Source: Pseudomonadota bacterium
GTDB lineage: Bacteria; Pseudomonadota; Alphaproteobacteria; Caulobacterales; Caulobacteraceae
Direction: 5' to 3'
Length of the DNA: 59,001 nt
NCBI GenBank assembly: GCA_019348195.1
Contig: JAHWJX010000006.1
Span: 1 to 59,001 of the forward strand
The notes beneath the pieces were generated by a model. The model made no database searches. It was not told the origin of the DNA and saw only the letters and a list, made by a program, of their open reading frames with translations. Numbering within the stretch: position 1 is the first letter of the stretch; each line of letters starts with the position of its first letter. A program made the translations under genes and the position numbers. Of this stretch, positions 2,479-59,001 are shown piece by piece.

Positions 2479-2482
2479 GCCG

Positions 2483-3889: not shown

Positions 3890-3906
3890 CCGCTCCTCGA
3901 TTTGGC

Positions 3907-7253: not shown

Positions 7254-7279
7254 GGCTGGTCTTTCATTCGCCGACGGAG

Positions 7280-8538: not shown

Positions 8539-8541
8539 GGC

Positions 8542-8811: not shown

Positions 8812-8920
8812 GAGCGGACCCTAACGAGCCCCCCGGCCCCGCACAACGTCCGCTCACCAAGGAACGCACGAGCCGTGCCCGGCCAAAAACGTCGCCGCCG
8901 ACGTCCGCGGGATTCCCGGC

Positions 8921-9544: not shown

Positions 9545-9584
9545 CACGCGCGCTTATAGGCCGCTTTGGTGACAGCGCCGACTC

Positions 9585-39988: not shown

Positions 39989-40594
39989 ATGCTGTTAGCT
40001 GCGGACAGCCTTCCAAAGGGGCCCGTGCCGGACGTCGAGGTTTTCCAGGATTGGCTGGAGACGGAGGGCGGCGCTCGGTTGGTCGTTGAGCGCTCCGGAC
40101 GCATCATCTGGAGCAACGCCCGCGCTCGCCGGTTGCTGAGCGAGGGGTCGTGCCTGACCATGACCGCGGGGCAGCTCGCCGCCCCCCACCGGGCGAGACA
40201 TGCGGAGCTCCGGACTTTCCTGGACAATCTCAACGGCGGGCCCGAGGTCGCGGTCCTGACCAGCGGCGAGGAGACCAAGCCGCCGGTCGTGATCATCGGC
40301 TGCGCCCTACGGGTCGACTCCGGTGACTATCTCGGGTTGCGGATCCGGCAGGTTTCGGACGCGCCGCGGCTGCTGGTGGCCGACCTCACACCCGCTTACC
40401 GGCTGACAGGCTCAGAACGGCAGGTCGTGCGGTGGCTGGTCGAAGGTGAGACCGCCGAGGCGATCAGCAAGGCCAACGGGTAGTCGATCGACACCGTGCG
40501 AACGCACATCCGGAACATATACAACAAGATCGGGGTGTCCTCGCGCGAGGCCCTATTCGCACGGGTCTTCCAATATCTGTTCTGGCTGGACTGA
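39989..40594 (+). pseudogene. PAS-like/LuxR regulator interrupted by an in-frame amber codon
   Basis: From the ATG at 39989 the protein has a PAS-like region (RLVVERSGRIIWSNARARRL then LSEGSCLTMTAGQLAA) and a LuxR HTH that begins YRLTGSERQVVRWLVEGETAEAISKANG. A TAG follows at 40481-40483. The same frame then continues with a perfect HTH second half, SIDTVRTHIRNIYNKIGVSS and REALFARVFQYLFWLD, ending at TGA 40592-40594. A single C-to-T change (CAG to TAG) would explain it. Without read-through the 164-aa product lacks the recognition helix. It is divergent from csgF and so is the prime candidate regulator of the curli operon. Confidence 0.8.
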
Positions 40595-40791
40595 GCCGCA
40601 CCGCTCCTCCTCGAGAACGCCCGACATGCCGCTCGGTTGATCCCGCGTTCGGAAGGAGCCTCCCCCCTTCATCGGCCATGCTCAGCCCATTGCCTCCCCG
40701 GAACGGCCGGGGTCGAGGCGAAACTTCGCAACGGCTTGCATCACTTGCACGCCCGAACGACCTTGAAGCCGCCCAGGGTGGGAGAATCCAA

Positions 40792-40977
40792 ATGATGACA
40801 AAGCGGGGCTGGTCTCCAGACGATGGGGAGAACAAGGCGCGGGACGCGCGGGAAGCCGAAACGGATCGTCTGAACGCGACAAGCAATGCGCAGCAACAGC
40901 GGTCGTCGAACGCGCCCCAGGCCCCCCCGGCCGGTGAGGCGCCTGCGCCAGGCTCGGAAGCGCCGACGAAGCCATGA
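40792..40977 (+). CDS. Small hypothetical protein coupled to the FAD oxidase gene
   Basis: This predicted 61-aa hydrophilic protein (MMTKRGWSPDDGENKARDAR start, Pro/Ala-rich end) is preceded by GGGAG and overlaps the next ATG through ATGA, which argues for real translation and coupling. I recognise no family. The ATG at 40795 is an equally good start. Confidence 0.5.
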   Translation: MMTKRGWSPDDGENKARDAREAETDRLNATSNAQQQRSSNAPQAPPAGEAPAPGSEAPTKP

Positions 40978-42407: not shown

Positions 42408-42442
42408 CGCTCGCGGGGCGCCGTTGAGGCCGGCCCAGGCGA

Positions 42443-42458
42443 CTGGTATCAAGGTGGC
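42443..42458 (+). promoter_or_regulatory. Candidate half-operator overlapping the deaminase ribosome-binding site
   Basis: CTGGTATCAAGGTGG just before the ATG at 42459 matches the left half and core of the palindrome at 45662-45677, but the right half is degenerate. A repressor bound here would block translation initiation or transcription of the amino-sugar genes. Evidence is a single partial match. Confidence 0.35.
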
Positions 42459-43532
42459 ATGGATAGCGGCGAACCGGACGGGCTCGGGGGCGGACCGGCC
42501 AGCGCGCAGGAGACCCTGCTTCATCGCGAGGGGCAGGAAGCGGCGGCGGTCGCCGAGCGCCACCGCGCGGAGCACCCGCCCCTCTTCGCCGAGCTCGGCC
42601 GCCGGCTCCGCGACCTGGATCCTCCGGTTGTGATCACCTGCGCGCGGGGGAGCTCCGATCACGCCGCCACCTTCGCGAAATACCTCATCGAGACGCGCGC
42701 GCTCACGCCCACGGCTTCGCATGCACCGTCCGTGACCTCGGTGTATTCGACGCCCTGGCGGAAGCTCCGCGGCGCCCTCTTCCTCGCGATCTCGCAATCG
42801 GGCCGCAGCCCCGATCTCGTGGTCTCCGCCGAGGCGGCCAGGGCGGCCGGCGCTTTTGTGGTGAGCCTGGTCAACGACATGGACTCACCGCTGGCGGCTA
42901 TGGCGGACATTGCCGTGCCCCTGCTGGCCGGGCCCGAGCGCAGCGTGGCCGCCACCAAGTCCTACATCGCCTCGCTGTTGGCGGTCATCCAGCTCGTAGC
43001 CGCCTGGGCGGAGGACGACGAACTCGCAGGCGCGGTCGCCGCCGCTCCAGCGGCCCTGACGGGCGCCTGGGACCAGGACTGGTCGGGAGCCGCCGCGCCT
43101 CTGCTCGGGGCCTCGGGGCTGTTCGTGATCGGACGGGGGCTGAGCCTGGCCGTGGCCCAGGAGGCGGCCCTCAAGCTGAAGGAGACCTGCGGCCTGCATG
43201 CCGAGGCCTACAGCGCCGCGGAGGTTCGCCACGGACCGATGGCGATCGTGGGTCCCGGGCTGCCGGTGCTGATGCTGGCCCCGAACGACGCGGCCAGCGA
43301 GGGCTTCCCGGCGCTGGCGGGTGAATTTCTCGACCGCGGCGCACCCGTGATCACCGCCGGCTTCGCCTGCCCCGGCGCGATCCAACTGCCGACGCTCCCC
43401 AATCTGCATCCGGCGCTGGCCCCGCTCGCGAGCATCCAAAGCTTCTACCGCTTCGTAGCCGAGCTCAGTCTGTCGCGGGGGCTGGACCCGGATCGCCCCC
43501 CCTACCTGCGCAAGGTCACGGAAACTCTGTGA
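42459..43532 (+). CDS. SIS-domain glucosamine-6-phosphate deaminase (NagB-II type)
   Basis: The 357-aa protein is a double SIS-domain isomerase resembling the C-terminal half of GlmS: VITCARGSSDHAATFAKYLI, LAISQSGRSPDLVVSAEAAR, ERSVAATKSYIASLLAVIQL, IGRGLSLAVAQEAALKLKET, CGLHAEAYSAAEVRHGPMAI and the DPDRPPYLRKVTETL end. It lacks the glutaminase domain, which together with the nagA neighbour identifies the alternative deaminase NagB-II. That enzyme converts GlcN-6-P to fructose-6-P and ammonia. It overlaps nagA by GTGA. Confidence 0.92.
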   Translation: MDSGEPDGLGGGPASAQETLLHREGQEAAAVAERHRAEHPPLFAELGRRLRDLDPPVVITCARGSSDHAATFAKYLIETRALTPTASHAPSVTSVYSTPWRKLRGALFLAISQSGRSPDLVVSAEAARAAGAFVVSLVNDMDSPLAAMADIAVPLLAGPERSVAATKSYIASLLAVIQLVAAWAEDDELAGAVAAAPAALTGAWDQDWSGAAAPLLGASGLFVIGRGLSLAVAQEAALKLKETCGLHAEAYSAAEVRHGPMAIVGPGLPVLMLAPNDAASEGFPALAGEFLDRGAPVITAGFACPGAIQLPTLPNLHPALAPLASIQSFYRFVAELSLSRGLDPDRPPYLRKVTETL

Positions 43533-44668
43533 ATCGGTCGGCCCTGCTTCCCACGCGGGTGCTCACGCCTCAGGGGTTTGAGGCGGACCGCTGCGTCTTG
43601 GTCGAGAACGGTGTGATCGCAGCGGTGATCGCGGCCACGGCCTGCCCGCCCGAGGTCCAACGCCGGGAGCTCGAGGGAGACCTGCTGCCCGGCTTCATCG
43701 ACCTGCAGGTGAACGGCGGAGGCGGTGTCCTTTTCAACGACGAACCCACCCTCGAGGGCGTCGCGGCCATCGGCCAGGCGCACCGCAGCTATGGAACGAC
43801 GGGCTACCTTCCCACTCTGATCAGCGATGACCTTTCCGTGCTGGAGGAGGCCATCGCTGCGGTGGACGCCGCGATTGAAGGCGGCCTCCCGGGCGTGTTG
43901 GGCATCCATCTGGAGGGCCCTTTTCTCAATCCCGAGCGCAAGGGCATCCACGACCCGTCCAAGTTCCGGATCCTGGACGAGGCGGCCATTGAACTGCTGA
44001 GCTCGCTGAAGCGGGGCAAGACCCTGGTGACCCTGGCCCCGGAGCTCGCGCCGCCCGGCGCCATCCGCGCGCTGGTCGGCCGCGGAGTCATCGTCTTCGC
44101 CGGCCATACCGCCGGCGCTTATGAGGACGCCTGCGCGGGCCTGGACGAAGGAACGCGCGGGTTCACCCACCTGTTCAACGCCATGACGCCGCTGGGCAGC
44201 CGCGCCCCGGGCGTGGTCGGCGCGGCGCTCGATGCGCCGGACGCCTGGTGCGGCCTGATCGTCGACGGACACCACGTCCACCCCGCCGCGCTGAGGCTGG
44301 CCCTGGCGGCGAAGGGGGCCGAGCGGCTGGCCCTGGTCAGTGACGCCATGCCCACGGTCGGCTCCGCGCGTAAGGAGTTCACCCTGGGCGGCCGGCGCAT
44401 CGTGGCCCGCGATGGCCGCTGCACGGCGGCGGATGGAACGCTTGCGGGCTCCGACCTCGACATGGCTCAGGCGGTCCGCAATGCTGTGACCATGATGGGC
44501 GTGAGCCTGGAGACTGCGGTGCGCATGGCGAGCGCGGTGCCTTCCGCCGTTTTGGGGCTGGGCCGCGTCACGGGCGCGATCGCCCCGGGCCTCCAAGCGG
44601 ACCTGGCCCTGATGGACGCGACGGGGTCGGTGCTCGAAACCTGGATCGCCGGCCGGCCGTCCAGGTGA
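43529..44668 (+). CDS. nagA: N-acetylglucosamine-6-phosphate deacetylase
   Basis: NagA removes acetate from GlcNAc-6-P. The 379-aa amidohydrolase shows DLLPGFIDLQVNGGGGVLFND, GIHLEGPFLNPERKGIHDPS (HLEGPF at 127-132, metal Glu), VIVFAGHTAGAYEDA, GFTHLFNAMTPLGSRAPGVV and LALVSDAMPTVG with the catalytic Asp. The GTG at 43529 overlaps the previous stop, so it is coupled to the deaminase. It converges on the kinase gene with a 7-bp gap. Confidence 0.95.
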   Translation: MNRSALLPTRVLTPQGFEADRCVLVENGVIAAVIAATACPPEVQRRELEGDLLPGFIDLQVNGGGGVLFNDEPTLEGVAAIGQAHRSYGTTGYLPTLISDDLSVLEEAIAAVDAAIEGGLPGVLGIHLEGPFLNPERKGIHDPSKFRILDEAAIELLSSLKRGKTLVTLAPELAPPGAIRALVGRGVIVFAGHTAGAYEDACAGLDEGTRGFTHLFNAMTPLGSRAPGVVGAALDAPDAWCGLIVDGHHVHPAALRLALAAKGAERLALVSDAMPTVGSARKEFTLGGRRIVARDGRCTAADGTLAGSDLDMAQAVRNAVTMMGVSLETAVRMASAVPSAVLGLGRVTGAIAPGLQADLALMDATGSVLETWIAGRPSR

Positions 44669-44675
44669 TGGGCGG

Positions 44676-45581
44676 CTAGGCCGGGGCCTTCCTCGCCCGC
44701 CGCTCCCGGGCGCCCTCCGCCTGGGCGCGAGTGCGGGCCAGCAACAGGGCGCCATCCACGGCGTCGCCCATGGGATCGCTCAACCGTTCGCGGATGCCGG
44801 CGGCCAGCCACTGCTGCATGCGTGGCGCCAGCCCCCCCATCAGACAGCACGACGGCGCCCCACGCTCCAGCAGCACCCGGATGAGGCGGTCGATGCGCAG
44901 GGCGGCTTCCTGGACGATGGGCTCGGCCACGGTGTCACCCTGGGCGGCGTGATCCATCACCAGGGGAGCAAAGGCGGCGTAGTCGGTAGCGGTGGCCTGA
45001 TCCATCCAGTAGACGATCTCGCCGGCCGAGCCCCCGAAACGGTCCAGCACCTCCTGCGTCATCCTGCTGTGGGGTATCCGGCCGTCGCGAGCCCAGAGCG
45101 ATCGCCGGATCGCGCGCAGGCCGAGATCGGCGCCGCTACCCTCGTCGGAGATGGGGAAGCCGTAGCCGCCCACGCTGAACGCCTGCCCGCGGACGCGCGC
45201 AAAGCCGATGCTGCCCGTCCCGACGATGCAGATGGCCCCGTCCCCGCCGGCATGGGCCCCGAGATTGGCGATGGAGGCGTCGCTGGCGAAGGCGATCGAT
45301 CGAAAGGGGAAGTTGTGGGCCTGCAGCCCCGCCAGCACGCCCCGCCGGTTCAGACCGGCGATGCCCAGGCCCGCGTAGATGGACCGCATCTCGGTCTTGC
45401 CGAGTTCGGCGCTCTGAATGGCTTCCGCATAGGCGTCGCGCACCGCCCGCAGCGCATTGCCGAGACCGATGCGGGTATTGGCGGGGCCGGCCTCGCCCGT
45501 GGCCAGGATCTCTCCCTCGCCCGAGATCAGCCGCGCCCGGGTGTGGGTGCCGCCCGCGTCGATGCCCAGGTAGAATTCCAT
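44676..45581 (-). CDS. BadF/BadG-type N-acetylglucosamine kinase
   Basis: The 301-aa ASKHA kinase starts LGIDAGGTHTRARL (phosphate-1 loop, Asp8), has AICIVGTGSIGF (phosphate-2) and GYGFPISDEGSGADLGLRAI, and ends with SCCLMGGLAP near the adenosine motif. It is like eukaryotic NAGK and the bacterial BadF kinases of GlcNAc loci. It would phosphorylate GlcNAc, or MurNAc/GlcN, after import. I start at the ATG at 45581, just ahead of the loop. It is divergent from the TonB receptor, with the candidate operator between them. Confidence 0.9.
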   Translation of the reverse strand: MEFYLGIDAGGTHTRARLISGEGEILATGEAGPANTRIGLGNALRAVRDAYAEAIQSAELGKTEMRSIYAGLGIAGLNRRGVLAGLQAHNFPFRSIAFASDASIANLGAHAGGDGAICIVGTGSIGFARVRGQAFSVGGYGFPISDEGSGADLGLRAIRRSLWARDGRIPHSRMTQEVLDRFGGSAGEIVYWMDQATATDYAAFAPLVMDHAAQGDTVAEPIVQEAALRIDRLIRVLLERGAPSCCLMGGLAPRMQQWLAAGIRERLSDPMGDAVDGALLLARTRAQAEGARERRARKAPA

Positions 45582-45661
45582 AGGGACGCCCGGTGTAGCG
45601 CCGCCCGCCCGACGGCGGCTGAGCCCCGGCACTAGCGGCCATCAGCCCTGGCTGCAAGCCT

Positions 45662-45677
45662 CTGGTATTAAGACCAG
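45662..45677. promoter_or_regulatory. Candidate GntR/NagR-type operator
   Basis: CTGGTATTAAGACCAG is a near-perfect 16-nt palindrome (CTGGT-N-TTAA-N-ACCAG) in the divergent promoter region of the GlcNAc kinase and TonB receptor genes. TGGT...ACCA half-sites are typical of GntR/UTRA regulators of amino-sugar genes (DasR, NagR/YvoA, NagQ). Such a regulator is encoded at 49694. The receptor start lies about 153 bp downstream. Confidence 0.6.
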
Positions 45678-45829
45678 TCAGCTCGTTGGCCTTCCCCAAG
45701 TTGCACGCCGGACACAGGCGGCTCCCCCCCCTGCAGCAACCTTGGCGGCGACCGGGCGATGATGTAGCTGCGAACAGGATGAGAATAAGACCACTCGGGG
45801 GACATCGAGGTGGTCGGGGGAGGTTAGGA

Positions 45830-48718
45830 ATGAAGGCTGGTTCAGTCACGACTCTGCTGTGCTCGGGGTCGATCTTGGCGCTGGTGGCGCTCGCGCCGGC
45901 GGCCGCCTCGGCGCAGGCCGGCTCCCCGGACCAACCCCAGACCACCGCCCCTCCGGCCCAGGCGTCGCCAGATCAGCCGCAGACCACCCCGGCCGTCGCG
46001 GAGGAGGAAGTGGAGCAGGTCGTCGTGACCGGATCGCGCATCGGGCGCACCAGCCTCACGGCCACCAGCCCCGTTGCGGTGCTGGGCCGCGAGGACATCG
46101 CGCTCGACCGGGCGCTGAACATCGAGGAGGTGCTCACCGAACTGCCGCAGTTCTCCAACGGCATCGGCGCGGTCAGTACGGGCTCCGACGCGCGCGGCGC
46201 GACCACCCTCGACCTCCGGGGTCTCGGACAAAACCGCACCCTGGTCCTGATCAACGGCACGCGGGCCGTCCCCTTCAGCTTCCGCAATTCGGTGGACGTC
46301 AACGCCATCCCGGCGCCCCTGATCGAGCGTGTGGAGGTGCTCACGGGCGGCGCTTCGGCGGTTTACGGAGCCGACGCCGTGGCCGGCGTGGTCAATTTCA
46401 TCCTGCGCGACGACTTCGAGGGTTTCGAGACAAGCGCGATCTACAACGTCTCGGACGAGGGCGACGCCGCCAACTACGGAGTGAACCTCACCGTCGGCGC
46501 CAACCTCCAGGACGGCCGCGGCAACGTCACCGGCTACCTGGGCTGGTCCAAGCGCGAAGGCCTGCTCAAGAGCGAGCGGGACTTCGCCGCCCCTGAAGTC
46601 AATGACGCCGGCGTGCCCAACAGCACCCGTCCGGCCGGCGGCCAGTTCACCCGCAGCGACAACGCCTCGGTGTTCAACGTGGGCGGCACGCGGCAGCCGC
46701 GCTTCGCCTTCACCGAGCAGGGCGCCTTGACCTCCGCCGTGCAGACCAGCGTGTTCAGCCCCTTCGAAGCCCTGGTGCAGCCGCTGGAGCGGCTGACCGG
46801 GGCGGTGTTCTTCAATTATGACCTGTTCGGCACGGTCGAGGCCTACGGCCGGGCCACGGCCACCTACACCGAGATCGAAGACCAGCTGCCGCCCGCCACC
46901 TCGGCCGTGAGCTTCCTGGTTCAGCGCGACAACCCCTTCCTCACGCCTGAGCTGAGGTCGGTGGTGGCCGGGGCGTTCAACCGCACACGCACGGGCGCGC
47001 TGGGCGGGACGGACGCCTTCCAGGCGAGCGCATCGCGCGCTTTCCCCGAGCTCGGCCTGATTCGATTCGAGACGGAGCGGACGACCTTCCAGGGCCAGTT
47101 CGGCCTGCGCGGTCGCTTCACCGACAACGTTGGCTGGGATGGCTACCTGCAGTACGGGCGCACCAGCGACATCGTCGACATCGGAGGCGAAGGCGTTGTG
47201 GCGCGAGCGGCCCAGGCCGCCAACGCCACGGTGGATGCCGCGGGTCGGCCGGTGTGCGTGGACCCGTCGGGCGGGTGCGTCCCGGTCAACCTGTTCGGGC
47301 CCGGATCGATCAGCCCCGCTGCGGCGGCCTTCATCGGGCAGCCGTTGCAGCAATCACGTGAACGCGACCAACTGGTCGCGGCGATCGCCATGACTGGCGA
47401 CAGCGGCGACATCTTCTCCCTGCCCGCGGGGCCCGTGGGCTTCGCTCTCGGCTATGAGTACCGGGAGGAGACGGGCGAGGTCGAGTTCGACAGCGCGATC
47501 CAGCAGGGTCAGACCTTCAACCAGGGCCGCCGGCCCAACTTCGGGGGCGGCTACGAGGTAAGCGAGCTGTTCGGCGAGGTGAGCGTCCCGCTCCTGCGCG
47601 ATCTGCCGCTGGTGCAACAGCTCAACTTCGAGGCCGCATACCGCCGCTCCGACTATTCCACCGCGGGCGAGGTCGACGCCTACAAGCTAGGCGGGAACTG
47701 GGCGCTCAACGAGAACCTGCGGTTTCGCGGCGCTTTCCAGACGGTTGTACGCGCTCCCAACATCGGAGAGCTGTTCGGGGCGCTGGGCAGCGTGGGCCTG
47801 CCGGGCTCCGTCACCGATCCGTGCGCCAACCCCGCGGTCTCCGGGGCCTCCGCCGAGGTCTGCCGGGCCACGGGCGCGCCGGCGGCGCCCTACACCCAGA
47901 ACACGGTGGGCGCGCTCTTCCTGTTCGGAGGCAACGTCAACCTGCAACCCGAGGAGGGGGAGACCTATACGGTGGGCGCGGTGTTCACCCCGACCTTCCT
48001 GCCGGGCTTCAGCGCCACCGTCGACTACTATGACATCCAGATCGACAACGCGATCAACGCCGTCCTGCCGCAGCCCACGCTGGACACCTGCTACGTCATC
48101 GTGCGCGACGCCTCCAACCCGTTCTGCGGGCGGGTGAGCCGCGGCGCCAATGGCCAGATCACCGCCGTGAACAGCACCGACGTCAATGTCCAGCTGCTCA
48201 CGGTCGAAGGCCTGGACGTGAGCACCCGCTACGCGTTCAACCTGCCCGCGAACCTGCCCGGGGATCGGGTGGTGCTCGACTACGCCGCCGATTTCCTGTT
48301 GAGCCAGACCTTCAAGAACGGCGCGGCGGCGGCGGAGGTGGACTGCACCGGACGCTTCGGCGCGGCCTGCGCGCTCGGCGGGGTCTCGCGGGTGCTCCCG
48401 GAGTACCGTCACCGCGTCAATGCGGCCTGGACAAGCGGCCCCTTGACGCTGCGCGGCACCTGGCGACGGATCGGCGAGGCGGACGACGCCTCGCGGGCGA
48501 CCATCTTCGCGGTCGAGGAGATCGAGGCTCAGAACTACTTCGACCTGGCCGCCGCTTACGACGTCAACCCGTCCGTGCGGGTGATCGCCGGGGTCGAGAA
48601 CCTGTTCGACGAGGAGCCGCCCATCCTCGGCAGCAACCAGGCGGACGCCAACACCTTCCCGGCCACTTACGACGTCATCGGGCGTCGGCTGGGCGTCTCC
48701 GTCACGCTGCGGCGGTGA
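45830..48718 (+). CDS. TonB-dependent receptor (predicted chitooligosaccharide/GlcNAc or muropeptide receptor)
   Basis: The 962-aa outer-membrane protein has a signal peptide (ending AAASAQ), a Gln/Pro repeat linker (SPDQPQTT twice), the TonB/plug start VEQVVVTGSRIGRTSLTATS, plug motifs (LDLRGLGQNRTLVLINGTRA, IERVEVLTGGASAVYGADAV, AGVVNFILRDDFEG) and a long barrel ending LGVSVTLRR. GGGGGAGGTTAGGA precedes the ATG at 45830, which fixes the start. Context with nagA, GlcNAc kinase, murQ and a GntR regulator suggests import of amino sugars. Confidence 0.93.
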   Translation: MKAGSVTTLLCSGSILALVALAPAAASAQAGSPDQPQTTAPPAQASPDQPQTTPAVAEEEVEQVVVTGSRIGRTSLTATSPVAVLGREDIALDRALNIEEVLTELPQFSNGIGAVSTGSDARGATTLDLRGLGQNRTLVLINGTRAVPFSFRNSVDVNAIPAPLIERVEVLTGGASAVYGADAVAGVVNFILRDDFEGFETSAIYNVSDEGDAANYGVNLTVGANLQDGRGNVTGYLGWSKREGLLKSERDFAAPEVNDAGVPNSTRPAGGQFTRSDNASVFNVGGTRQPRFAFTEQGALTSAVQTSVFSPFEALVQPLERLTGAVFFNYDLFGTVEAYGRATATYTEIEDQLPPATSAVSFLVQRDNPFLTPELRSVVAGAFNRTRTGALGGTDAFQASASRAFPELGLIRFETERTTFQGQFGLRGRFTDNVGWDGYLQYGRTSDIVDIGGEGVVARAAQAANATVDAAGRPVCVDPSGGCVPVNLFGPGSISPAAAAFIGQPLQQSRERDQLVAAIAMTGDSGDIFSLPAGPVGFALGYEYREETGEVEFDSAIQQGQTFNQGRRPNFGGGYEVSELFGEVSVPLLRDLPLVQQLNFEAAYRRSDYSTAGEVDAYKLGGNWALNENLRFRGAFQTVVRAPNIGELFGALGSVGLPGSVTDPCANPAVSGASAEVCRATGAPAAPYTQNTVGALFLFGGNVNLQPEEGETYTVGAVFTPTFLPGFSATVDYYDIQIDNAINAVLPQPTLDTCYVIVRDASNPFCGRVSRGANGQITAVNSTDVNVQLLTVEGLDVSTRYAFNLPANLPGDRVVLDYAADFLLSQTFKNGAAAAEVDCTGRFGAACALGGVSRVLPEYRHRVNAAWTSGPLTLRGTWRRIGEADDASRATIFAVEEIEAQNYFDLAAAYDVNPSVRVIAGVENLFDEEPPILGSNQADANTFPATYDVIGRRLGVSVTLRR

Positions 48719-48790
48719 TGGAGGCTGTGCAGGCGCAGGCGGCGCGAGCCGTCTGCGGTCGGCGGGCCTGAACCGGACAGGAGCCTAGCC

Positions 48791-49684
48791 TTGCCCACCG
48801 AGGGGATCAGCGCTCGATATGCGGACGTGGACCTGTGGCCCACCCGCGACGCGGTGGCTGCGATGCTGGAAGGCCAGCTCGCCGCCGCAGCCGCCGTGGC
48901 GGCCCAGGCGGACCCGCTCGCCGCCGCAGCCGAGGCCGCCGCCGCGCGGCTGGCCGATCCCGCCGGACGCCTGGTGTACGTGGGCGCGGGCGCCTCGGGT
49001 CGCATCGCGGTCCAGGACGGGGTGGAGCTCGGCCCCACCTACGATTGGCCGTCCGAGCGGCTGGTCTACGCCCTTGCGGGGGGCACGGGAGCGCTGAACT
49101 CCAGCGCCGAGGGCGCCGAGGACGACGCCCAGCAGGGCATGGCGGCCATGCGCCAGGCCGCGCTCGGCTCCGCCGACGTGGTGATCGGCGTGGCGGCCAG
49201 CGGGGCCACGCCCTACACCGTGGCCGCCGTTCGGGAAGCCGCAAGCGCCGGCGCGCTGACCGTGGGCCTGTCCAGCAACGCAGCCGCCGTGCTGCTCCAA
49301 GCCGCCGCTCACCCCATCCTTCTCGAGACCGGCCCCGAGATCGTCGCCGGCTCCACCCGCATGAAGGCGGGAACGGCGCAGAAGATCGCGCTCAACGTCC
49401 TGTCCACGGCGATCATGCTGCGTCTGGGCCGCGTCTACAAAGGGCTGATGGTCGACATGCGCGTGTCCAACCGCAAGCTCCGGGATCGGGCCGTGGGCAT
49501 GGTGGGCGAGATCAGCCGGATCGACCGGGCGGCCGCCGAAAACGCCCTGGAGCAGGCGGGCGGCGACATCAAGCTCGCCGCCCTGCTGGGTCTTGGCCTG
49601 GAGCCCCGGAGGGCGGCGGATCTTCTGCGCGAGGCGGGCCACAATCTCCGGGTCGCCATGAGCCGGATGGCGGGCGGGGACTGA
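48791..49684 (+). CDS. murQ: N-acetylmuramic acid-6-phosphate etherase
   Basis: MurQ cleaves the lactyl ether of MurNAc-6-P to give GlcNAc-6-P and D-lactate in cell-wall recycling. The 297-aa protein has LVYVGAGASGRIAVQDGVEL, VIGVAASGATPYTVAAVREA, HPILLETGPEIVAGSTRMKA, GTAQKIALNVLSTAIMLRLG and YKGLMVDMRVSNRKLRDRAV, all family signatures including the active-site Glu region. It starts with TTG at 48791 with AGGAG upstream. Its products feed NagA and the D-lactate-type oxidase of the same region. Confidence 0.95.
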   Translation: MPTEGISARYADVDLWPTRDAVAAMLEGQLAAAAAVAAQADPLAAAAEAAAARLADPAGRLVYVGAGASGRIAVQDGVELGPTYDWPSERLVYALAGGTGALNSSAEGAEDDAQQGMAAMRQAALGSADVVIGVAASGATPYTVAAVREAASAGALTVGLSSNAAAVLLQAAAHPILLETGPEIVAGSTRMKAGTAQKIALNVLSTAIMLRLGRVYKGLMVDMRVSNRKLRDRAVGMVGEISRIDRAAAENALEQAGGDIKLAALLGLGLEPRRAADLLREAGHNLRVAMSRMAGGD

Positions 49685-49693
49685 GCGGTCCCC

Positions 49694-50464
49694 ATGGTCG
49701 CCCGCAGGCTCGTCCCCGACCGCAACGACGCCACCCCGCTCTACATCCAGGTGGCCAACGGCATCCGCGAGATTATCCGCGACGGAAGCCTGGACGTCGG
49801 CGGCGCCCTGCCCTCCGAGCGCACGCTGAGCGAGCTCACCGGGGCGTCGCGGGTCACCATCCGCAAGGCCATTCACCAGCTGGCCGAAGAGGGGCTGCTG
49901 CTGCGCCGCCACGGCTCCGGCACCTATGTGGCCCCGCGCATCGAGCAACACAGCGGCGACCTCACGAGCTTCAGCGCCGATGCTGCGACCCGGGGCGAGG
50001 CACCAGGGTCGATCTGGATCGTCAAGGCGCTCTCGGCGCCCACGGAGGAGGGGGCCGCCATCCTCGCGGCGGCGCCGACCACCTTGGTGGCCCGGCTCGG
50101 CCGCGTGCGCCTGGCGGACGGGCAGCCGCTGGCGATCGAACACGCCGTTGTTCCCGCGGAGCTCCTGCCCGGGCTCGACCAGATCCAGGACTCCCTCTAC
50201 GCCGCCCTGGCGATGAAAGGGAACCGGCCCTTCCGGGGCGAGCAGCGACTGCGGGCTTCGACCGCCACCTCCGTGGAGGCGGGTCTGCTTTCCATGCAGG
50301 AAGGCGGGGAGATCCTGCGGATCGAGCGCCGCACCTTTCTGGAGGACGGCAGGCCCGTGGAGCTCACCCGTTCCGCCTACCGTGGCGACCGCTACACCTT
50401 TGTGACGGAGCTCCGGGAGCTGCGCCCAGGCGGCGGGCTCGCGAGGCGCCCACCCCAGACATGA
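49694..50464 (+). CDS. GntR family regulator with UTRA domain (NagQ/NagR-like)
   Basis: The 256-aa protein has an N-terminal GntR winged HTH (about 10-75): PLYIQVANGIREIIRDGSLD, GGALPSERTLSELTGASRVT, IRKAIHQLAEEGLLLRRHGS, GTYVAPRI. The C-terminal UTRA/chorismate-lyase-like effector domain includes LARLGRVRLADGQPLAIEHA, a helix LLPGLDQIQDSLYAAL and ILRIERRTFLEDGRPVELTR. HutC-subfamily members control amino-sugar genes with GlcN-6-P or GlcNAc-6-P as effector. It begins 10 bp after murQ, and the palindrome at 45662 is its likely target. Confidence 0.93.
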   Translation: MVARRLVPDRNDATPLYIQVANGIREIIRDGSLDVGGALPSERTLSELTGASRVTIRKAIHQLAEEGLLLRRHGSGTYVAPRIEQHSGDLTSFSADAATRGEAPGSIWIVKALSAPTEEGAAILAAAPTTLVARLGRVRLADGQPLAIEHAVVPAELLPGLDQIQDSLYAALAMKGNRPFRGEQRLRASTATSVEAGLLSMQEGGEILRIERRTFLEDGRPVELTRSAYRGDRYTFVTELRELRPGGGLARRPPQT

Positions 50465-50479
50465 GGAGCGGACGGGGTC

Positions 50480-51781
50480 ATGATCGATCGTCGTGAGGCG
50501 CTGCTGGGGGGAGCCATGGCGGTCACCCGCCCGTCCGCCGGCCCCGGCCGTGGGCTGCAGGCCTTGGTCGCCCCTTCCGCCGGCCCGGGGGTGCTCGGCG
50601 TTGCCGTGATCGCTCGAGGCGCAGACGGCCGGGTCCAGTTCGCCGAGGCTGCGGGCACTGCGGTCACAGGAGCTGGAGCCGTGCAGCAGGAGCGCCCCTT
50701 CACCCTCGAGGACCCTGTGCGGGTGGCCTCCATTTCCAAGCTCGTTCTCATGGCTGGGTTCATGAGCCTGGTCGAGCAGGGCGCAATAGGCATGGAGGAC
50801 GACGTCTCGGGTCCGCTCGACTTCCGGCTGCGGCATCCGGCGTTCCCGGAGGTGGAGATCACCCCCGCCATGCTGGCCTCCCACACCAGCGGCCTGCGGG
50901 ATTCGCCCAACTACCCTCTCCCCCTCGGACGCCGGCTCGTCGAGGCCTTCACGCCGGGATCGGCCGCCTATGAGAACGGGGCCTGGTTCGCGGCGGCCGT
51001 CCAGCCGCCCGGCCGCTTTTTCACCTATGCGAACACCAACTTCGCCGTACTGGCACAGCTGATCGAGCGGCTCTCCGGGGAGCGGTTCGACCGGTTCATG
51101 AGCCGGCACGTCTTCCAGCCGCTTGGGCTGGACTGCGGCTACAACTGGAGCGGGGTGAGCCAGGCGAAACGCAACCGGGCTTCGGCTGTCTGCCGCTGGG
51201 AGAACGGAGCCTGGACGCCGGGCGTGGACGCGGAGGTCCCCCCCGCCCCGGGCGTCCGCGTCCTGGCCGCGCCCGAGCGGCCGGAGCTCCAGGCGGATGA
51301 CTACGGATTGGGCGAGAACGGCTGGGTCTTTTCCCCGCAGGGCGGGCTCCGGGCCAGCGCGCGCGACCTGGACGCCCTGGCTCGCCTGTTCGCCGCCGGC
51401 GGCCGCCTCGGTCGCAAGCGCCTGCTCTCCCCTTCGACCGTCCGCCGCATGCAAACGCCGCTCTGGACCTATGATCCTCAGAGGGCGAACGGCGACACTG
51501 ACCGCGGGCTGATGCGCGCCTACGGCATGTCGGTTCACGCTCTGACGGGACGTGTCGCGCCGGACGGCGACGGCTTGTTCGGCCCGGACTCCCGGGACTG
51601 GCGCGGCCACCTGGGCCAGGCCTACGGTCTGCTGGCCGGCCTATGGTGGAACGTCCGGAACGGCCGCACCCTGGTCTACGTCATCAACGGCACGCCCGGC
51701 GAGGCGGCCTCGGCCCCCGGTCGCCACTCAGCTTTCACGGCTTGGGAGGAAGCCGCCGTAGCCGCCGCAGGGGTGGCTTAG
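50480..51781 (+). CDS. Serine hydrolase of the beta-lactamase class C/DD-peptidase family
   Basis: The 433-aa protein has the SxxK motif Ser84-Ile-Ser-Lys87 in DPVRVASISKLVLM and the YxN motif Tyr183-Ala-Asn185 in FFTYANTNFAVLAQLIERLS. A HTSGLRD loop follows the nucleophile region (residues 135-141) as in esterase/DD-peptidase relatives. The N-terminus (RREALLGGAMAV) looks like a weak twin-arginine or simple export signal with RRE. Position last in the murQ/GntR run suggests a role on muropeptides, for example as an amidase or peptidase that prepares anhydro-muropeptides, but substrate is unproved. Confidence 0.85.
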   Translation: MIDRREALLGGAMAVTRPSAGPGRGLQALVAPSAGPGVLGVAVIARGADGRVQFAEAAGTAVTGAGAVQQERPFTLEDPVRVASISKLVLMAGFMSLVEQGAIGMEDDVSGPLDFRLRHPAFPEVEITPAMLASHTSGLRDSPNYPLPLGRRLVEAFTPGSAAYENGAWFAAAVQPPGRFFTYANTNFAVLAQLIERLSGERFDRFMSRHVFQPLGLDCGYNWSGVSQAKRNRASAVCRWENGAWTPGVDAEVPPAPGVRVLAAPERPELQADDYGLGENGWVFSPQGGLRASARDLDALARLFAAGGRLGRKRLLSPSTVRRMQTPLWTYDPQRANGDTDRGLMRAYGMSVHALTGRVAPDGDGLFGPDSRDWRGHLGQAYGLLAGLWWNVRNGRTLVYVINGTPGEAASAPGRHSAFTAWEEAAVAAAGVA

Positions 51782-51841
51782 CCACGCGCGCCGCCTCTAG
51801 AAAAGGAGCGGCAAGGAGGCCTGCGAGGCTGACCCGGTAGG

Positions 51842-52351
51842 CTAGCGCCCCCCGGCCACCGGGATGATCCAGTGCCGAACCCGAGGGCGGCCCAAGGCTC
51901 GGTCACGAGCTGACGAGGGCTCGACCAGAATCCCTTTCACCGGGCCCGGTTCAAGCTTGGCCCGCGCGATTGAGCGGCCGGACGCGTTGGGGGCTGAACG
52001 GCGGGAGGTGCTGGCGACCTTTCGTTCCGGCGAAGTCGGTCCGAGCAGGCGGTAGGGCGCGCCCCCGGGCGCTGACGCCCGGTAGCCCATTTCGCGCTCC
52101 TCCGGATTGGGTATGGGGGCCATGGTGCCCCAGCCAGGGCGCCGAGCCTCCACCAGGACAGCCTGGGAGGGGGGAGACGCCACCGGTCTGTCTTCTTCCT
52201 CTGCAGGACCGCCGAGGAGTTCAGGCGCCGCCTCAGCCTGGATCGCCGCCCCGGCGGGCTCATGGACTTCAGGCATTCCGCAGCCGCTCAAGGCGACCAA
52301 CAGGAGAGAGCTTCCTAGAAGAAGAGCGGCCTTGGATGCGTCGGACTTCAT
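51842..52351 (-). CDS. Hypothetical lipoprotein, Pro/Arg-rich
   Basis: I start at the ATG at 52351 because it yields a clean lipoprotein signal: MKSDASKAALLLGSSLLLVA then LSGC, with the lipid-anchoring Cys near residue 24. The mature 146-aa part is acidic then basic and rich in Pro, with no family I recognise (segments PAEEEDRPVASPPSQAVLVE and ARDRALGRPRVRHWIIPVAG). It is convergent with the serine hydrolase gene. Confidence 0.6.
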   Translation of the reverse strand: MKSDASKAALLLGSSLLLVALSGCGMPEVHEPAGAAIQAEAAPELLGGPAEEEDRPVASPPSQAVLVEARRPGWGTMAPIPNPEEREMGYRASAPGGAPYRLLGPTSPERKVASTSRRSAPNASGRSIARAKLEPGPVKGILVEPSSARDRALGRPRVRHWIIPVAGGR

Positions 52352-52509
52352 CTCGCGTGTCCCTGGGCCTGCCCCGTCCGCGACGTTAACACTTTCGAGG
52401 GCTCGTAGGTAGAACATATCGGGCTGGTGCAGTCTCATGCGTTGACAGAGCTGGAAGTCCCGCCAGCCATCAACATCCAGCGCGCACGGCTACCCGTTGA
52501 GGCGTCGAC

Positions 52510-52917
52510 TCAGCGGCCGGGAGTCTCGCCTCGGGCGGCAGCCGCCTCCTCAGGCGAGAGCTTGCGAACGCTGCGCACCAGGCAACGCTGCAGCCCGCGC
52601 CCGCTCACAGGAGGGATCAGAAGCTCGGCATCCCGGCCCGAGCAGATCCGGCCGGAGCCGCCGCGCGAGACGATGCCGAGCCTTTGGGCGTAGTCGATGT
52701 CCGGGCACCCGGGGGACACGGCAAGCTCCCAGGTTTCATAAAGGCCAAGATTGACCAGGGCGAGATTGGGTCCGGCGTCGCTGAAGCCGGTCACCGACGA
52801 GCTCCAGAAGCACTGCCTGGGACTTTCGGCGGCCATCGGACCGACGGCGTCGCGGGCCGGCGCGGTGCATGCGGCCGCCCCCAACATCGAAGCCAGGACG
52901 AGGTCGACGGCGCGCAA
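52510..52917 (-). CDS. DUF6491 family lipoprotein
   Basis: The protein contains the DUF6491 pattern: RQCFWSSSVTGFSDAGPNLA, VNLGLYETWELAVSPGCPDI, DYAQRLGIVSRGGSGRICSG, RDAELLIPPVSGRGLQRCLV and SVRKLSPEE. The family is frequent in Caulobacterales and of unknown function. I choose a TTG at 52917, 8 bases after GGAGG, which gives a short lipoprotein signal ending GAAAC; the longer GTG start at 52953 spoils the signal. Length would be 135 aa, the usual size. Confidence 0.72.
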   Translation of the reverse strand: MRAVDLVLASMLGAAACTAPARDAVGPMAAESPRQCFWSSSVTGFSDAGPNLALVNLGLYETWELAVSPGCPDIDYAQRLGIVSRGGSGRICSGRDAELLIPPVSGRGLQRCLVRSVRKLSPEEAAAARGETPGR

Positions 52918-53125
52918 CTGGATGACCTCCAATTCGCAGAGATCAACGCACACCAGCCTGAGCGGTTCACCCCCTGCATAAGGCTCAGCCTTGGGCGCCT
53001 AACGGCAGCCGGCGGCCGTAGGGCCTGGACCAAAGCCTAGACGCGGACCTGCCCAGCGTCGGACCCAGGCGTCTCCCGCGGGAGCCCAGGCGCACGTCTC
53101 AGCCGCAACGAACACACGCGACCGA

Positions 53126-53497
53126 TCACAGTCCGGCCGACTTCGGCGGTCGCGCCGCAGCGGCCACAGGGGGATCGCCGTCCAGGTCGGTGCGTTGGCG
53201 CACGACCTCGAAGCGGTGGCCGGCGTCGCGCATCTCGTAGAGCTTGCCGCGCGCGTCCTTGAAGGGGCGGTGGACCACCATCATCAGCTGGCCGTCGAAG
53301 GCGCGGAACAGCATGCCGTGACCGCTGTCCCGCCGCACAAGCGCGCCGAGTTGGATCCAGGGGCCGTCGATCTCGCCGGAGGTGGATCGGGCTTGGGCCT
53401 GGACGTAGCCGTCGGCCGCCCAGGTGGACCAGAGCATGATCAGCTGACCCTTGCGGGTGCGGTGAAGTTGCGGCCCGTCGGTGACGAAGGCCGTCAC
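53126..53497 (-). pseudogene. 3' remnant of a GH43-family glycoside hydrolase
   Basis: The frame reads TAFVTDGPQLHRTRKGQLIM, LWSTWAADGYVQAQARSTSG, GPWIQLGALVRRDSGHGMLF, RAFDGQLMMVVHRPFKDARG and KLYEMRDAGHRFEVVRQRTD. That is the last blades of a five-bladed GH43 beta-propeller, with the conserved SGHGMLF segment. The N-terminal two thirds, with the catalytic Asp and Glu, are absent. Upstream (toward 53560) the frame stays open but reads unrelated sequence that belongs to the GH35 gene on the other strand. GH43 enzymes release arabinose, xylose or galactose from pectin and hemicellulose side chains. Confidence 0.75.
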
Positions 53498-53528
53498 GCC
53501 GGGTCGACGGCTTGGAACCTTCTGCAGT

Positions 53529-54341
53529 TGGCCGGCGGCCCAGGCGGACTCGCTCAGCCTGCACTATGGGGCCGGCGGCGCAGGCATGATCCAGGTCTGG
53601 CTGGGCGGACGGTTCCTGGGCCAGCACGAGCTGGCCACGCAGCTCACCTTTCCGCTGACGACGGGGACGGCCAACTTCACCGTGCCGCCTGAGCTTCGGA
53701 CGCCCGGAGAGCACGTCCTGGCGGTGATGGTCCGCAACAACGGCCACAACTGGGACTTGAACGCCGACGACGCCCACAAGGAGGGGCGCGGGCTGATCCA
53801 GGCCTCGCTCTCGAAGCAGGCGGGCAAGAGCTTCTCCGTACCCATCGCTTGGAAGATCCAGGGCGTGCAGGGCGGCGAAGACCTGGTCGACACCGTTCGC
53901 GGCCCGGTCAACAACGGAGGCCTCTTCGGCGAGCGGAACGGCTGGCACCTGCCCGAGCACCGTGACGGCGGCTGGTCTGTGGAGCCTCCTCCTCCGGCCC
54001 CTGGGACGCATTGGCGCCGGACCACCTTCGACCTCGATGTGCCGCAGGGCCATGACGCCTCGCTGGGGATCACCATCGGCGATCCCAACACGCCACGCTC
54101 GCCGGGAGCCTATCGGGTGCTGATCTTCGTGAACGGCTGGAACATGGGCCAGTTCATCTCCAACATCGGCCCGCAGCGCACCTTCGTGATCCCCACGGGC
54201 GTGCTGAACCCGAGGGGACGCAACACCCTGGCGCTGGCGGTGACGAGCAACGGTGATCCGGCGAACGCGCTGGAGGCGGTGCGGCTGGTGAACCTGCGAA
54301 CGGTGCGTGGCGGGCCCAGCTCCGTTGGCGCAGCTCCCTAG
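53529..54341 (+). pseudogene. 3' remnant of a GH35-family beta-galactosidase
   Basis: From about 53529 the frame reads WPAAQADSLSLHYGAGGAGM, IQVWLGGRFLGQHELATQLT, FTVPPELRTPGEHVLAVMVR, NNGHNWDLNADDAHKEGRGL, then a second jelly-roll with YRVLIFVNGWNMGQFISNIG, PQRTFVIPTGVLNPRGRNTL and ALAVTSNGDPANALEAVRLV. These are the C-terminal galactose-binding-like domains of GH35 enzymes. The catalytic TIM barrel is missing, so it cannot be active. It runs into the DUF6250 gene with a 2-bp gap. Confidence 0.75.
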
Positions 54342-54343
54342 AG

Positions 54344-55150
54344 ATGGAGCGCCGGCGGCTTCTGGTCCTGGCCGCCACCGTGCTGCTGCACGGATGCGCA
54401 AGTCGTCCCGCGGGAGAAGCTCCGGCCGGCGAAACCCGCTACCGCCTGGGCGGATTGATCCACCAGGACGACTTTCGCGGCGGGCTTGCTCAATGGGCGG
54501 TGGAGCTCGAGGCGGGCGGCCGCGTGGAGGCGCGCGACGGGCTGCTCGAGATCGATGTTCCACGCGGCGCCACCGTCTGGTTCCGGCCTGAGCTGCGCGG
54601 ACCGGTGCTGATCGAGTACGAAGTCCGTGCGGTGTCGGCGGGCGGGCCCAACGACCGCGTCAGCGACCTGAACAGCTTCTGGATGGCCACGGATCCCAGC
54701 AGCTCCGGCCGCAGGAGTCCCGGCGACGTCCTGAGCCGCCGCCGCAGCGGTCGGTTCGCGGACTACGAACCTCTGCACATGTACTATGTGGGCCTGGGCG
54801 GCAACACCAACACCACCAGCCGTTTCCGGCGTTACGGGGGCGCCGCGGGGCGCCCTCTCCTGCCCCAGCACGACCTGCGCTCGCCCGGAGCGCTGCTGCA
54901 GCCGAACCGGACCTACCGTGTCCGGCTGGTCGCCAGCGGAGGGCTCATCCAGTACTGGCGTGACGGTGAAAAGCTATTCGAGATGAACGATCCGGAGCCT
55001 TATACGCGCGGCTGGTTCGCCATCCGCACGACTCAGAACCGGATGCGCGTTGGGCGATTGCGGATATACCGGCTCCTCCCCGCCTCAGGACCGATCGCCC
55101 GCTCCAGACCAGGGCCACGAGCCTCGCCGCGCGTGGCGGCGGCGTGGTGA
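54344..55150 (+). CDS. DUF6250 family lipoprotein (YesU-like fold)
   Basis: The 268-aa protein has a lipoprotein signal (MERRRLLVLAATVLLHGCAS, Cys near 18) and a concanavalin-like region: LIHQDDFRGGLAQWAVELEA, IDVPRGATVWFRPELRGPVL, RVSDLNSFWMATDPSSSGRR, YEPLHMYYVGLGGNTNTTSR, YRVRLVASGGLIQYWRDGEK, GWFAIRTTQNRMRVGRLRIY. This matches DUF6250, found in pectin/rhamnogalacturonan loci and likely carbohydrate binding or lyase-related. The last ~25 residues look unrelated to the fold. Its end overlaps the GH28 start. Confidence 0.8.
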   Translation: MERRRLLVLAATVLLHGCASRPAGEAPAGETRYRLGGLIHQDDFRGGLAQWAVELEAGGRVEARDGLLEIDVPRGATVWFRPELRGPVLIEYEVRAVSAGGPNDRVSDLNSFWMATDPSSSGRRSPGDVLSRRRSGRFADYEPLHMYYVGLGGNTNTTSRFRRYGGAAGRPLLPQHDLRSPGALLQPNRTYRVRLVASGGLIQYWRDGEKLFEMNDPEPYTRGWFAIRTTQNRMRVGRLRIYRLLPASGPIARSRPGPRASPRVAAAW

Positions 55151-56676
55151 CGCCCGTCTCCGCCCAGCCGGTCGCGGGCGTGTACGACGTCCGCAGCTTC
55201 GGAGCCGTTGCAGGGGACAGCTGGCTCGACACCGGAGCCATCAACCGCGCCATCCAGGCCGCCTCGGAGGCGGGCGGGGGCGTGGTCCGCGTGCCTCCCG
55301 GGCGCTACCTCAGTTTCTCCATTCGGCTGCGCAGCCGCGTGACCCTGGAGCTGGCGCCCGGGGCCGTGCTCGAGGCGGCCGACCCGGGGCGCCACGGCGG
55401 CCGCTACGATGCGCCCGAACCCAATCCTCACGACCTGTACCAGGACTTCGGCCACAGCCATTGGCGCAACAGCCTGATCTGGGGCGAGGACGTGCACGAT
55501 GTCGCCATCGTCGGCGGGGGTCTGATCGACGGCGCCGGCCTCACCCGCGAAGGTCCCGGCGCGCGCTGGTCGCGCAACAAACTGGGCGACCGCCCGCTCA
55601 GCATGGGGGCGGCGGAGCCGACCTCCGCGGACCGCTATGAGGCCGAGGTCCGCGAGATGGACGGGCTGGGCAACAAGGCGATCGCGCTGAAGAACGCGCG
55701 CAACGTCACCTTTCGCGACTTTTCCGTCCTGAACGGCGGGCACTTCGCCTTTCTGCTCACGGGCGTCGACAATCTGGTGATGGATGGGCTGCGCATCGAC
55801 ACCAACCGCGACGGCATCGACCTGGACGTGGTGCGCAACGCGCGGCTGTCCAACCTTGCGGTGAACACCCCCAACGACGACGCCATCGTGCTCAAGAGTT
55901 CGCTCGCCCTGGGTGTCGCCCGTCCCACCGAGAACGTCACGGTCACCAATTGCCAGGTCTCAGGCTACGACCTCGGCGCCCTGCTGGACGGCTCCTTCCG
56001 CAAGACGCAGGAGCTGTCGCCCGACCTGGACCGGGTGACGGGCCGCGTTAAGCTCGGCACCGAGTCCAACGGGGGCTTCCGCAACGTCGCGATCAGCAAC
56101 TGCGTTTTCGACCGCTCGCGCGGGCTGGCGCTGGAAAGCGTGGATGGCGGCGTGCTCGAGGACGTAACGGTGAGCAACATCGTCATGCGGGACGTGACCA
56201 CGGCGCCGATCTTCATCTACCTCGGCGACCGCCGCCGCGCGCCCAAAGGGACCGGGGTCGCCTCTCTGCGACGCGTCAATATCAGCAACCTCACCGCCTA
56301 TGGCATCGACCCCCGCTACGCGGCCATCGTTGCGGGCCTGCCGGACCGGCCCGTGGAGGACGTGACCCTGAGCAACATTCGCCTGGTTTTCCGAGGCGGC
56401 GGCACGGCGGAGGACGCCGCTCGCGTGCTACCGGAGCTGGCCGAGGCCTATCCCGAGCCCAGCATGTTCGGAGTCACGCCGGCCTACGGCCTTTACGTCC
56501 GCCACGCCCGCAACCTGGTCCTGCGCGACATCCAGCTCAGCACGGAGCAGCCGGACGCACGGCCCGCGGTGCTGGTGGACGATGCGGAGGGCTTGCGCGC
56601 CCACGGGGTGACGGCGAACACGGGCGATTCGTCCCCCGCGGCCCTCGATCTCCCTAGCGCCTGTCCGAGGCTTTGA
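55144..56676 (+). CDS. GH28-family glycoside hydrolase (polygalacturonase/rhamnogalacturonase-like)
   Basis: The 510-aa protein is a right-handed beta-helix enzyme. It opens with YDVRSFGAVAGDSWLDTGAI and NRAIQAASEAGGGVVRVPPG, then has the GH28 active-site region RIDTNRDGIDLDVVRNARLS and NTPNDDAIVLKSSLALGV with paired Asp residues. Several repeating coils follow (VTVSNIVMRDVTTAPIFIYL). GH28 enzymes cleave galacturonan, rhamnogalacturonan or remove terminal residues. The GTG at 55144 (or 55147) overlaps the DUF6250 stop. The N-terminus lacks a proper signal peptide, so the real start may be different or export may be lost. Context with rhamnose genes favours a rhamnogalacturonan substrate. Confidence 0.88.
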   Translation: MVTPVSAQPVAGVYDVRSFGAVAGDSWLDTGAINRAIQAASEAGGGVVRVPPGRYLSFSIRLRSRVTLELAPGAVLEAADPGRHGGRYDAPEPNPHDLYQDFGHSHWRNSLIWGEDVHDVAIVGGGLIDGAGLTREGPGARWSRNKLGDRPLSMGAAEPTSADRYEAEVREMDGLGNKAIALKNARNVTFRDFSVLNGGHFAFLLTGVDNLVMDGLRIDTNRDGIDLDVVRNARLSNLAVNTPNDDAIVLKSSLALGVARPTENVTVTNCQVSGYDLGALLDGSFRKTQELSPDLDRVTGRVKLGTESNGGFRNVAISNCVFDRSRGLALESVDGGVLEDVTVSNIVMRDVTTAPIFIYLGDRRRAPKGTGVASLRRVNISNLTAYGIDPRYAAIVAGLPDRPVEDVTLSNIRLVFRGGGTAEDAARVLPELAEAYPEPSMFGVTPAYGLYVRHARNLVLRDIQLSTEQPDARPAVLVDDAEGLRAHGVTANTGDSSPAALDLPSACPRL

Positions 56677-58151: not shown

Positions 58152-58917
58152 CTATTGCAGGTTCACGAAGGCGCCGCCGTCGACCAGCAGCGCGGCGCCG
58201 GTGACGTATCTGGCCAGGTCGGAGGCCAGGAAGACGATCGGTCCGGCCAGATCGTCCGGCTCGCCCAGCCGGCCCAGAGGGATGCGCGCCGCCATGTATT
58301 CGCGCTTCTTGGGATCGGCCAGGTCATCCCTGTTGATCGAGGTCTCGATGGTGCCTGGCAGAACCGAGTTGCAGCGGATTCCGTGCGGTCCCAGCGCGAT
58401 CGCCACCGACTGCATCAAGGAATGCACCCCCGCCTTTGTCGGCGTGTAGTGGGTCTGCATGCCCCCGCCCACCAGGGCGCTGATCGAGCTCACCGCCACG
58501 ATGGCTCCGCCGTTCCCCTGCTTGACCATCTGATTGGCCGCCGCCTGCACCATGTAGAAGGCCCCGTGCAGGTTCACCCGCATGGTCCGCTCCATGGTCT
58601 CCGCCGGCATGTCCAAAAAGGCGTGAAAGGGGCAGATGCCTGCATTGTTGACGAACACGTCCACCTTGCCGAACGCCTCGACGGCGGCCTCGATGAAGGC
58701 CGGCGCCGAAGCCGGATCGGAGACGTCTCCGCGCACCGCAATGGCCCGCCGGCCCATCGCTTCGATGGCGGCGACCGCCGCATCCGCGCCGGCCTGATCG
58801 TTCAGATAGTTGATGGCCACGTTCGCGCCGTGTCGCGCACAGCCTTCGGCGGCCGCCCGGCCTATGCCCTGCGACGCCGGTGACGACCGCCGTCTGACCT
58901 TCGAACCGTCCGTTCAC
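58152..58917 (-). pseudogene. SDR family dehydrogenase of L-rhamnose catabolism, frameshifted
   Basis: The main frame carries AINYLNDQAGADAAVAAIEA, VFVNNAGICPFHAFLDMPAE, AIVAVSSISALVGGGMQTHY, TPTKAGVHSLMQSVAIALGP and [15 protein letters not shown], with the catalytic Ser, Tyr and Lys (YTPTK). The N-terminus MNGRFEGQTAVVTG is in another frame from the GTG at 58917. The two halves join as TAVVTGASQGIGRAAAEGCA if two bases (one CG unit) are restored near 58875, inside the TGxxxGxG cofactor motif. The enzyme would be an L-rhamnose or 3-deoxyrhamnonate dehydrogenase. The GTG overlaps the end of the FAH gene by GTGA, so the operon arrangement is intact and the shift may be a sequencing error. Confidence 0.82.
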
Positions 58918-59001
58918 GCCGCCGCTCCCCGGCGGCGCCAGGGCACGACCGTTTGCTGTTGTTCGCCGAGCTTCTCGATGCCCAGCCGCATCACGTCCCC
59001 G
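58914..59001 (-). CDS. Fumarylacetoacetate hydrolase family protein, C-terminal fragment at the window edge
   Basis: Only the last 28 codons are inside the window: GDVMRLGIEKLGEQQQTVVP then WRRRGAAA and a stop. This is the usual end of FAH-fold hydrolases (GDVxxLxIExLGxQxQxVVP). Next to a rhamnose SDR, LldD and RhaM it is probably 2,4-diketo-3-deoxy-L-rhamnonate hydrolase (LRA6 type), which yields pyruvate and L-lactate. Its stop overlaps the SDR GTG. Confidence 0.75.
   Translation of the reverse strand, partial: GDVMRLGIEKLGEQQQTVVPWRRRGAAA

Follow-up and report, generated by a model that had tools for sequence, protein, structure and literature searches.

The point at which the ends of a GH43 gene and a GH35 gene meet, position 53543/53544, is probably a chimeric join in a draft assembly and not a fixed deletion. 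The DNA that was analyzed, here called the window, is the entire contig C120 (59,001 bp) of the draft genome G000, an assembly of 2.55 Mb in 153 contigs that is 93.9% complete. It was compared with G001 (about 3.0 Mb, 99% complete), which was the only same-genus genome among 59 others searched and the closest found; contig C6 of G001 matches JAUJMO010000004.1, from a Caulobacteraceae MAG, at 100%. That the join is absent from most cells, and what kind of chimera it represents, we infer from the structure of the contigs.

Two Truncated Glycosidase Genes Meet at a Single Point

In the alignment to G001, window positions 39869–53544 correspond to C6 170144–156452 (95.5% identity) and positions 53543–54341 correspond to C6 142896–142098 (96.9% identity, 799 bp, gapless). 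The two templates overlap by 2 nt (GG), and 13,555 bases of C6 (142897–156451) are missing from the window at this junction. The original prediction described back-to-back 3' remnants of GH43 (minus strand) and GH35 (plus strand) at one breakpoint within 53480–53560; the junction falls inside that interval and both stumps end at 53543/53544. A common point for the two 5' losses was thus correctly recognized, with the correction that they are not spread over about 50 bp and lie at the same point within 2 bp. The features of this region are as follows.

53126–53544, minus strand: GH43 3' remnant, the last 138 of 368 codons plus stop, with no internal stop and no indel relative to G001
53543–53544, no strand: junction 1, from the GH43 3' part to the GH35 3' part, placed by alignment to G001
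53545–54341, plus strand: GH35 3' remnant (BetaGal_ABD2 and C-terminus), 264 codons plus stop, open frame
54341, no strand: junction 2, located precisely between the stop of GH35 and the start that follows, with a 1-nt overlap; 2.12 kb of G001 is absent
54344–55150, plus strand: DUF6250 protein, an intact neighbor by Pfam and omega
55144–56676, plus strand: GH28-type pectinase, an intact neighbor by Pfam and omega

The G001 counterpart of the minus-strand stump is a 368-aa protein with a match to Pfam GH43 (PF04616, E 4e-26). The counterpart of the plus-strand stump is a 1,290-aa ORF with a match to Pfam GH35 (PF01301, E 3.7e-84), which also contains BetaGal domains 2 and 3 and ABD2. The 123-aa GH43 ORF of the window has no Pfam match when searched alone, whereas the full-length G001 gene matches PF04616, and the GH43 identity of the stump therefore rests on its alignment to G001. 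In the GH35 part of the window, the Pfam search returned only BetaGal_ABD2 and a galactose-binding match below the curated cut-off; the GH35 catalytic domain (PF01301) was absent from this part.

GH43 and GH35 are both full length and divergent in G001, at approximately 95.5% identity to the window, and they lie 13.56 kb apart. A comparison with relatives had been proposed to reveal intact divergent genes; the genes are indeed full length and divergent, but they are not neighbors, given the 13.56 kb and four recognized genes between them. These genes encode a PcRGLX-type protein, a TonB-dependent receptor, a family 11 rhamnogalacturonan lyase, and a GDSL esterase, and all four would also have been lost if the deletion were real.

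Two readings had been put forward for the breakpoint: a deletion between divergent genes, or an assembly fault in the form of a collapsed repeat or contig join. A contig join fits the data best and a deletion fits badly; a collapsed repeat was rejected, as only 2 nt are common to both sides of the join. The sole direct repeat found in 53300–53800 is a 16-nt near-repeat at 53530/53570, which lies off the breakpoint on the GH35 side. Recombination at this near-repeat was rejected because the ~25 nt of GH35 that separate the join from the second copy are still present. No promoter- or terminator-like sites were found in 53400–53700, and a literature search on this locus found nothing among the titles listed.

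The Missing Front of GH35 Is Located on Another Contig

The missing part of GH35 is present on another contig of the same assembly, and the missing part of GH43 was not found in that assembly among the candidates scored. The contig in question, C37 (3,800 bp), carries the front of GH35 with its catalytic domain. C37:339–3800 aligns to G001 C6 146445–142983 (94.7% identity), upstream of the GH35 part in the window, and C37 stops 86 bp before the join at 53543/53544. Its open frame of 988 codons encodes GH43-like, GH35 (PF01301, E 2.1e-85), BetaGal_dom2, and BetaGal_dom3 domains, all of which are absent from the window part. In the corresponding gene of G001, the GH43-like front matches in two pieces that meet at locus position 7469 (match 6951–7936) in different frames; the G001 gene therefore has a frameshift (real or a sequencing error), unlike C37.

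A search of G000 thus located 3,463 of the 13,555 bases missing from the window, namely the quarter adjoining the GH35 stump, on C37. The remaining 10,006 bases (C6 146446–156451), which include the GH43 front, were not found in G000 among the first-look candidates that were scored (40 of 232 and 40 of 224). Since G000 is 93.9% complete, this absence is weak evidence. The claim that the breakpoint removes two pectin side-chain enzymes from the locus is unsupported, because the GH35 front with its catalytic domain sits on C37.

These data bear directly on a fixed deletion, in which the species would have lost 13.56 kb of its rhamnogalacturonan-I locus and retained two 3' stumps. The stumps do abut at a single point, the candidates scored in the assembly did not yield the ~10 kb that contain the GH43 front, and the genome is smaller than that of G001 (2.55 Mb at 93.9% completeness versus about 3.0 Mb at 99%), all of which would be compatible with such a loss. 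The arrangement resembles a deletion scar with paired 3' stumps in that two divergent genes are cut at one point, but it differs from one in that the GH35 front is present in the assembly and the stumps are undecayed. A simple deletion is disfavored because C37 holds the GH35 front: 3,463 supposedly deleted bases occur in the same assembly, with the divergence expected for the species. Relative to G001, the dS of C37 is 0.15, compared to 0.09–0.17 for ten neighbor genes (with two ORFs left out, as described below). We therefore regard a fixed deletion as very unlikely.

The Gene Stumps Are Not Decayed

Selection was compared across the region in a table of omega values with 15 rows, 12 of which were neighbors of the two stumps. 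Two of these 12 were left out of the ranges, 43502–44755 on the minus strand (omega 1.43) and 51842–52438 on the minus strand (omega 1.25), where the values probably reflect a wrong frame and a small count. Compared to G001, the GH35 stump has an omega of 0.11 over 264 codons (19 synonymous and 6 non-synonymous differences), close to the 0.12 obtained for the GH35 part on C37. The GH43 stump has an omega of 0.32 over 138 codons (11.5 synonymous and 11.5 non-synonymous differences), near the upper end of the range for the ten neighbor genes (0.06–0.41). Decay in the form of an omega near 1, indels, or stops was not seen in either stump relative to G001. Judged by sequence, undecayed stumps would be expected if the cells carry the genes whole, or if the truncation happened very recently. 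Signs of decay would be expected only of an older loss, and a very recent one would look identical; purifying selection on the stumps says only that any truncation would be recent.

GH35 Matches Extend to the Gene Front in Most Related Loci

The locus is of a type that we take to be the proteobacterial rhamnogalacturonan-I utilisation locus. Among 191 loci whose GH35 3' ends are related, the 80 best, G001 included, represented the relatives; they come from Caulobacter, Sphingomonas, Niveispirillum, Massilia, and others. As in rhamnogalacturonan-I loci, several of GH35, GH28, a family 11 lyase, a GDSL esterase, and a TonB receptor occur together in G001 and in many of the 80 loci, within the stretch covered around GH35; gene order differs among genera. 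Two loci that rank among the Sphingomonas ones come from records under the names Bacillus sp. 2B10 and Arthrobacter sp. TPD3018, which are possibly mislabeled or contaminated.

With a 990-aa GH35 query, the tblastn match, judged by its extent and not by frame integrity, starts within the first 80 residues in 77 of the 80 loci; in the other three, it is cut off by a contig end at the first bases of the locus. A GH43-like domain precedes GH35 in 38 of the 80 loci. Within the stretch covered, a separate GH43 gene occurs in five, in each case on the opposite strand and downstream of GH35. A divergent GH43 directly upstream of GH35 was found in none of the 80 loci, which reach approximately 7 kb upstream of GH35, so a GH43 gene located farther off, as in G001, would be missed.

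These comparisons address the possibility that the window preserves the older arrangement and that G001 gained the 13.56 kb by insertion. As the sole same-genus genome among the 59 searched, G001 does not set the direction of change by its own state. However, in 77 of the 80 loci the GH35 match extends to the start of the query, the divergent arrangement with GH43 directly upstream of GH35 occurs in none of them, and an insertion in G001 could not have created the portions that the two stumps lack. Given the full-length GH35 matches in relatives outside the genus, an insertion in G001 was rejected as exceedingly improbable.

A Second Gene-Breaking Join at the Right Contig End

The right end of the contig contains a further join, inverted and located within a gene.

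58152–59001, minus strand: short-chain dehydrogenase in which the start of a second short-chain dehydrogenase gene takes the place of its own 5' end; inverted join at 58875–58878 with a 4-nt CGCC overlap
58875–59001, no strand: last 127 bases of the contig, identical to C102 11708–11834 and read as a k=127 de Bruijn graph end overlap

Both short-chain dehydrogenase genes are found in G001, approximately 3.2 kb apart and in opposite orientation. The second is uninterrupted on contig C102 of G000, as a 241-aa ORF, and C102 is collinear with G001 around this ORF for 4.3 kb. Identity between C120 and C102 covers exactly 127 bases, from the 4-nt overlap at the join to the last base of the contig. 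One study reports that metaSPAdes and MEGAHIT break contigs where several paths exist, leaving end sequences of length maxK, and gives 127 as the largest k in one metaSPAdes setting (PMC10914622). By this reading the graph presumably held two competing paths at 58875. No such end overlap was found in G000 for the left end of C120, and the 127-base signature therefore rests on one contig end.

The contigs resemble de Bruijn graph end-overlap branches, as outlined in that study, in that the last 127 bases of one contig occur inside another and one gene is spread over two contigs; they differ from simple end-overlap branches in that the 127 shared bases lie inside C102 and not at its end (PMC10914622). 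The GH35 break is not a simple k-overlap either, since 86 bp of the gene are in neither C37 nor C120. Elsewhere on C102, positions 1–10105 are a mosaic relative to G001, composed of pieces from C5, C1, and C6 together with several kilobases without a close match, and two pieces in this left 10 kb map to distant places in G001. The mosaic was considered as further proof of chimerism and set aside, since it is not clear that its joins interrupt genes.

The start of C37 is also unusual. Its first ~323 bases have a GC content of 77%, versus 68%, with the BLAST limit at 339, and have no G001 counterpart beyond 22 bp. The translation of C37 1–323 matched only itself among 60 genomes and had no Pfam match. 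This segment encodes a Gly/Pro-rich stretch and is joined to the 3' part of a GDSL esterase gene. By its composition and lack of matches, the start of C37 marks a third suspicious join of the chimera type. Together, the 127-base identity and the unmatched C37 start suggest chimera-type joins in this part of the assembly.

Origin of the Join

In the proposed explanation, a single organism would have contributed both sides of the join from its pectin (rhamnogalacturonan-I) locus, in which they would be separated on the chromosome by 13.56 kb, the spacing found in G001. C120 would have incorporated a molecule or graph path lacking the intervening DNA, and the GH35 front would have been assembled separately as C37. 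Such a molecule could have formed as a chimera during library preparation or whole-genome amplification, and such a path through an error in traversing the graph.

Amplification chimeras offer a structural comparison. In those of one E. coli cell, 406 of 475 joins (85%) were inverted, joins spanning <10 kb mostly had short overlaps, and direct joins over >10 kb accounted for 58 of 475, with overlaps in only 27.6% of directly joined segments >10 kb apart (PMC1855051). Measured against these figures, the join at 58875 is like multiple displacement amplification chimeras in being inverted, between sequences ~3.2 kb apart, with the intervening sequence lost, and the overlaps at 53543 (2 nt) and 58875 (4 nt) are short, as in such chimeras (PMC1855051). 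The join at 53543 is unlike the commonest class described there: it is direct and spans 13.56 kb, which places it in the rarer class, where overlaps are exceptional (PMC1855051). Amplification of the sample is only one conceivable source; a library chimera or a wrong graph path would explain the join equally well.

Several points count against a chimera. A k=127 path through 53543/53544 needs reads containing the join; the 10,006 unfound bases with the GH43 front would also be expected from a true loss; two other gaps of C120 relative to G001, at 5248/5340 and at 54341, have no near-identical second copy in the assembly; and C37, which stops short of the join, might belong to a different strain or have been translocated. 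In a rival explanation, the join exists in some cells, which would carry a 13.56-kb deletion or a moved GH35 front, others keep the locus, and the assembly mixes both states. C37 shows the front and C120 the join within the same assembled sample, the 127-base identity at 58875 suggests that two arrangements coexist, C37 and C120 are similarly diverged from G001 (dS 0.15 versus 0.09–0.17), and the left end of C37 has other sequence, as a translocated piece would. However, three gene-breaking joins within ~24 kb of G001 coordinates are more than one event would account for, and one of the three is inverted and one leads into sequence unmatched in 59 relatives. The stumps are also undecayed, and overlaps of 2 and 4 nt are seen in chimeras as well. 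A mixed population is thus unlikely but deserves more weight than a fixed deletion, and a chimeric join is the reading that we favor.

Junction 2 and Other Differences from G001

At position 54341 the match jumps to G001 C6 139975–135417. In G001, GH35 and the DUF6250 gene are separated by a LysR regulator and a 163-aa ORF, whereas in the window 2 bp separate the GH35 stop from the next start. The LysR regulator and the 163-aa ORF were matched in none of the other 79 loci and not in G000, and the 2.1 kb absent at 54341 has no near-identical second copy in the assembly. Junction 2 may be a true gene gain or loss between species. Because the join lies between a stop and a start and the ORFs are unmatched, a real gain or loss here is as likely as a twin artifact. 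In a separate part of the window, at 5248–5340, 8.1 kb of G001 contig C1 is absent and ~92 unmatched bases occur instead; no near-identical copy of the 8.1 kb was found elsewhere in G000.

Implications

Were the rearrangements genuine, the rhamnogalacturonan-I locus would be structurally polymorphic, with the 13.56-kb deletion, the dehydrogenase inversion, and a moved GH35 front coexisting in one population. We consider this improbable; if true, it would place rhamnogalacturonan-I degraders and non-degraders side by side. The apparent deletion scar is most likely an ordinary false join and not a real feature. Apparent deletion scars in draft genomes can be checked cheaply by seeking the missing half of the gene on other contigs, and a second inexpensive check is whether a contig ends in a stretch of exactly k bases that also occurs in another contig. 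For this organism, the consequence is a corrected annotation: this contig is no sufficient ground for listing the GH35 and GH43 pectin enzymes as lost from the genome.
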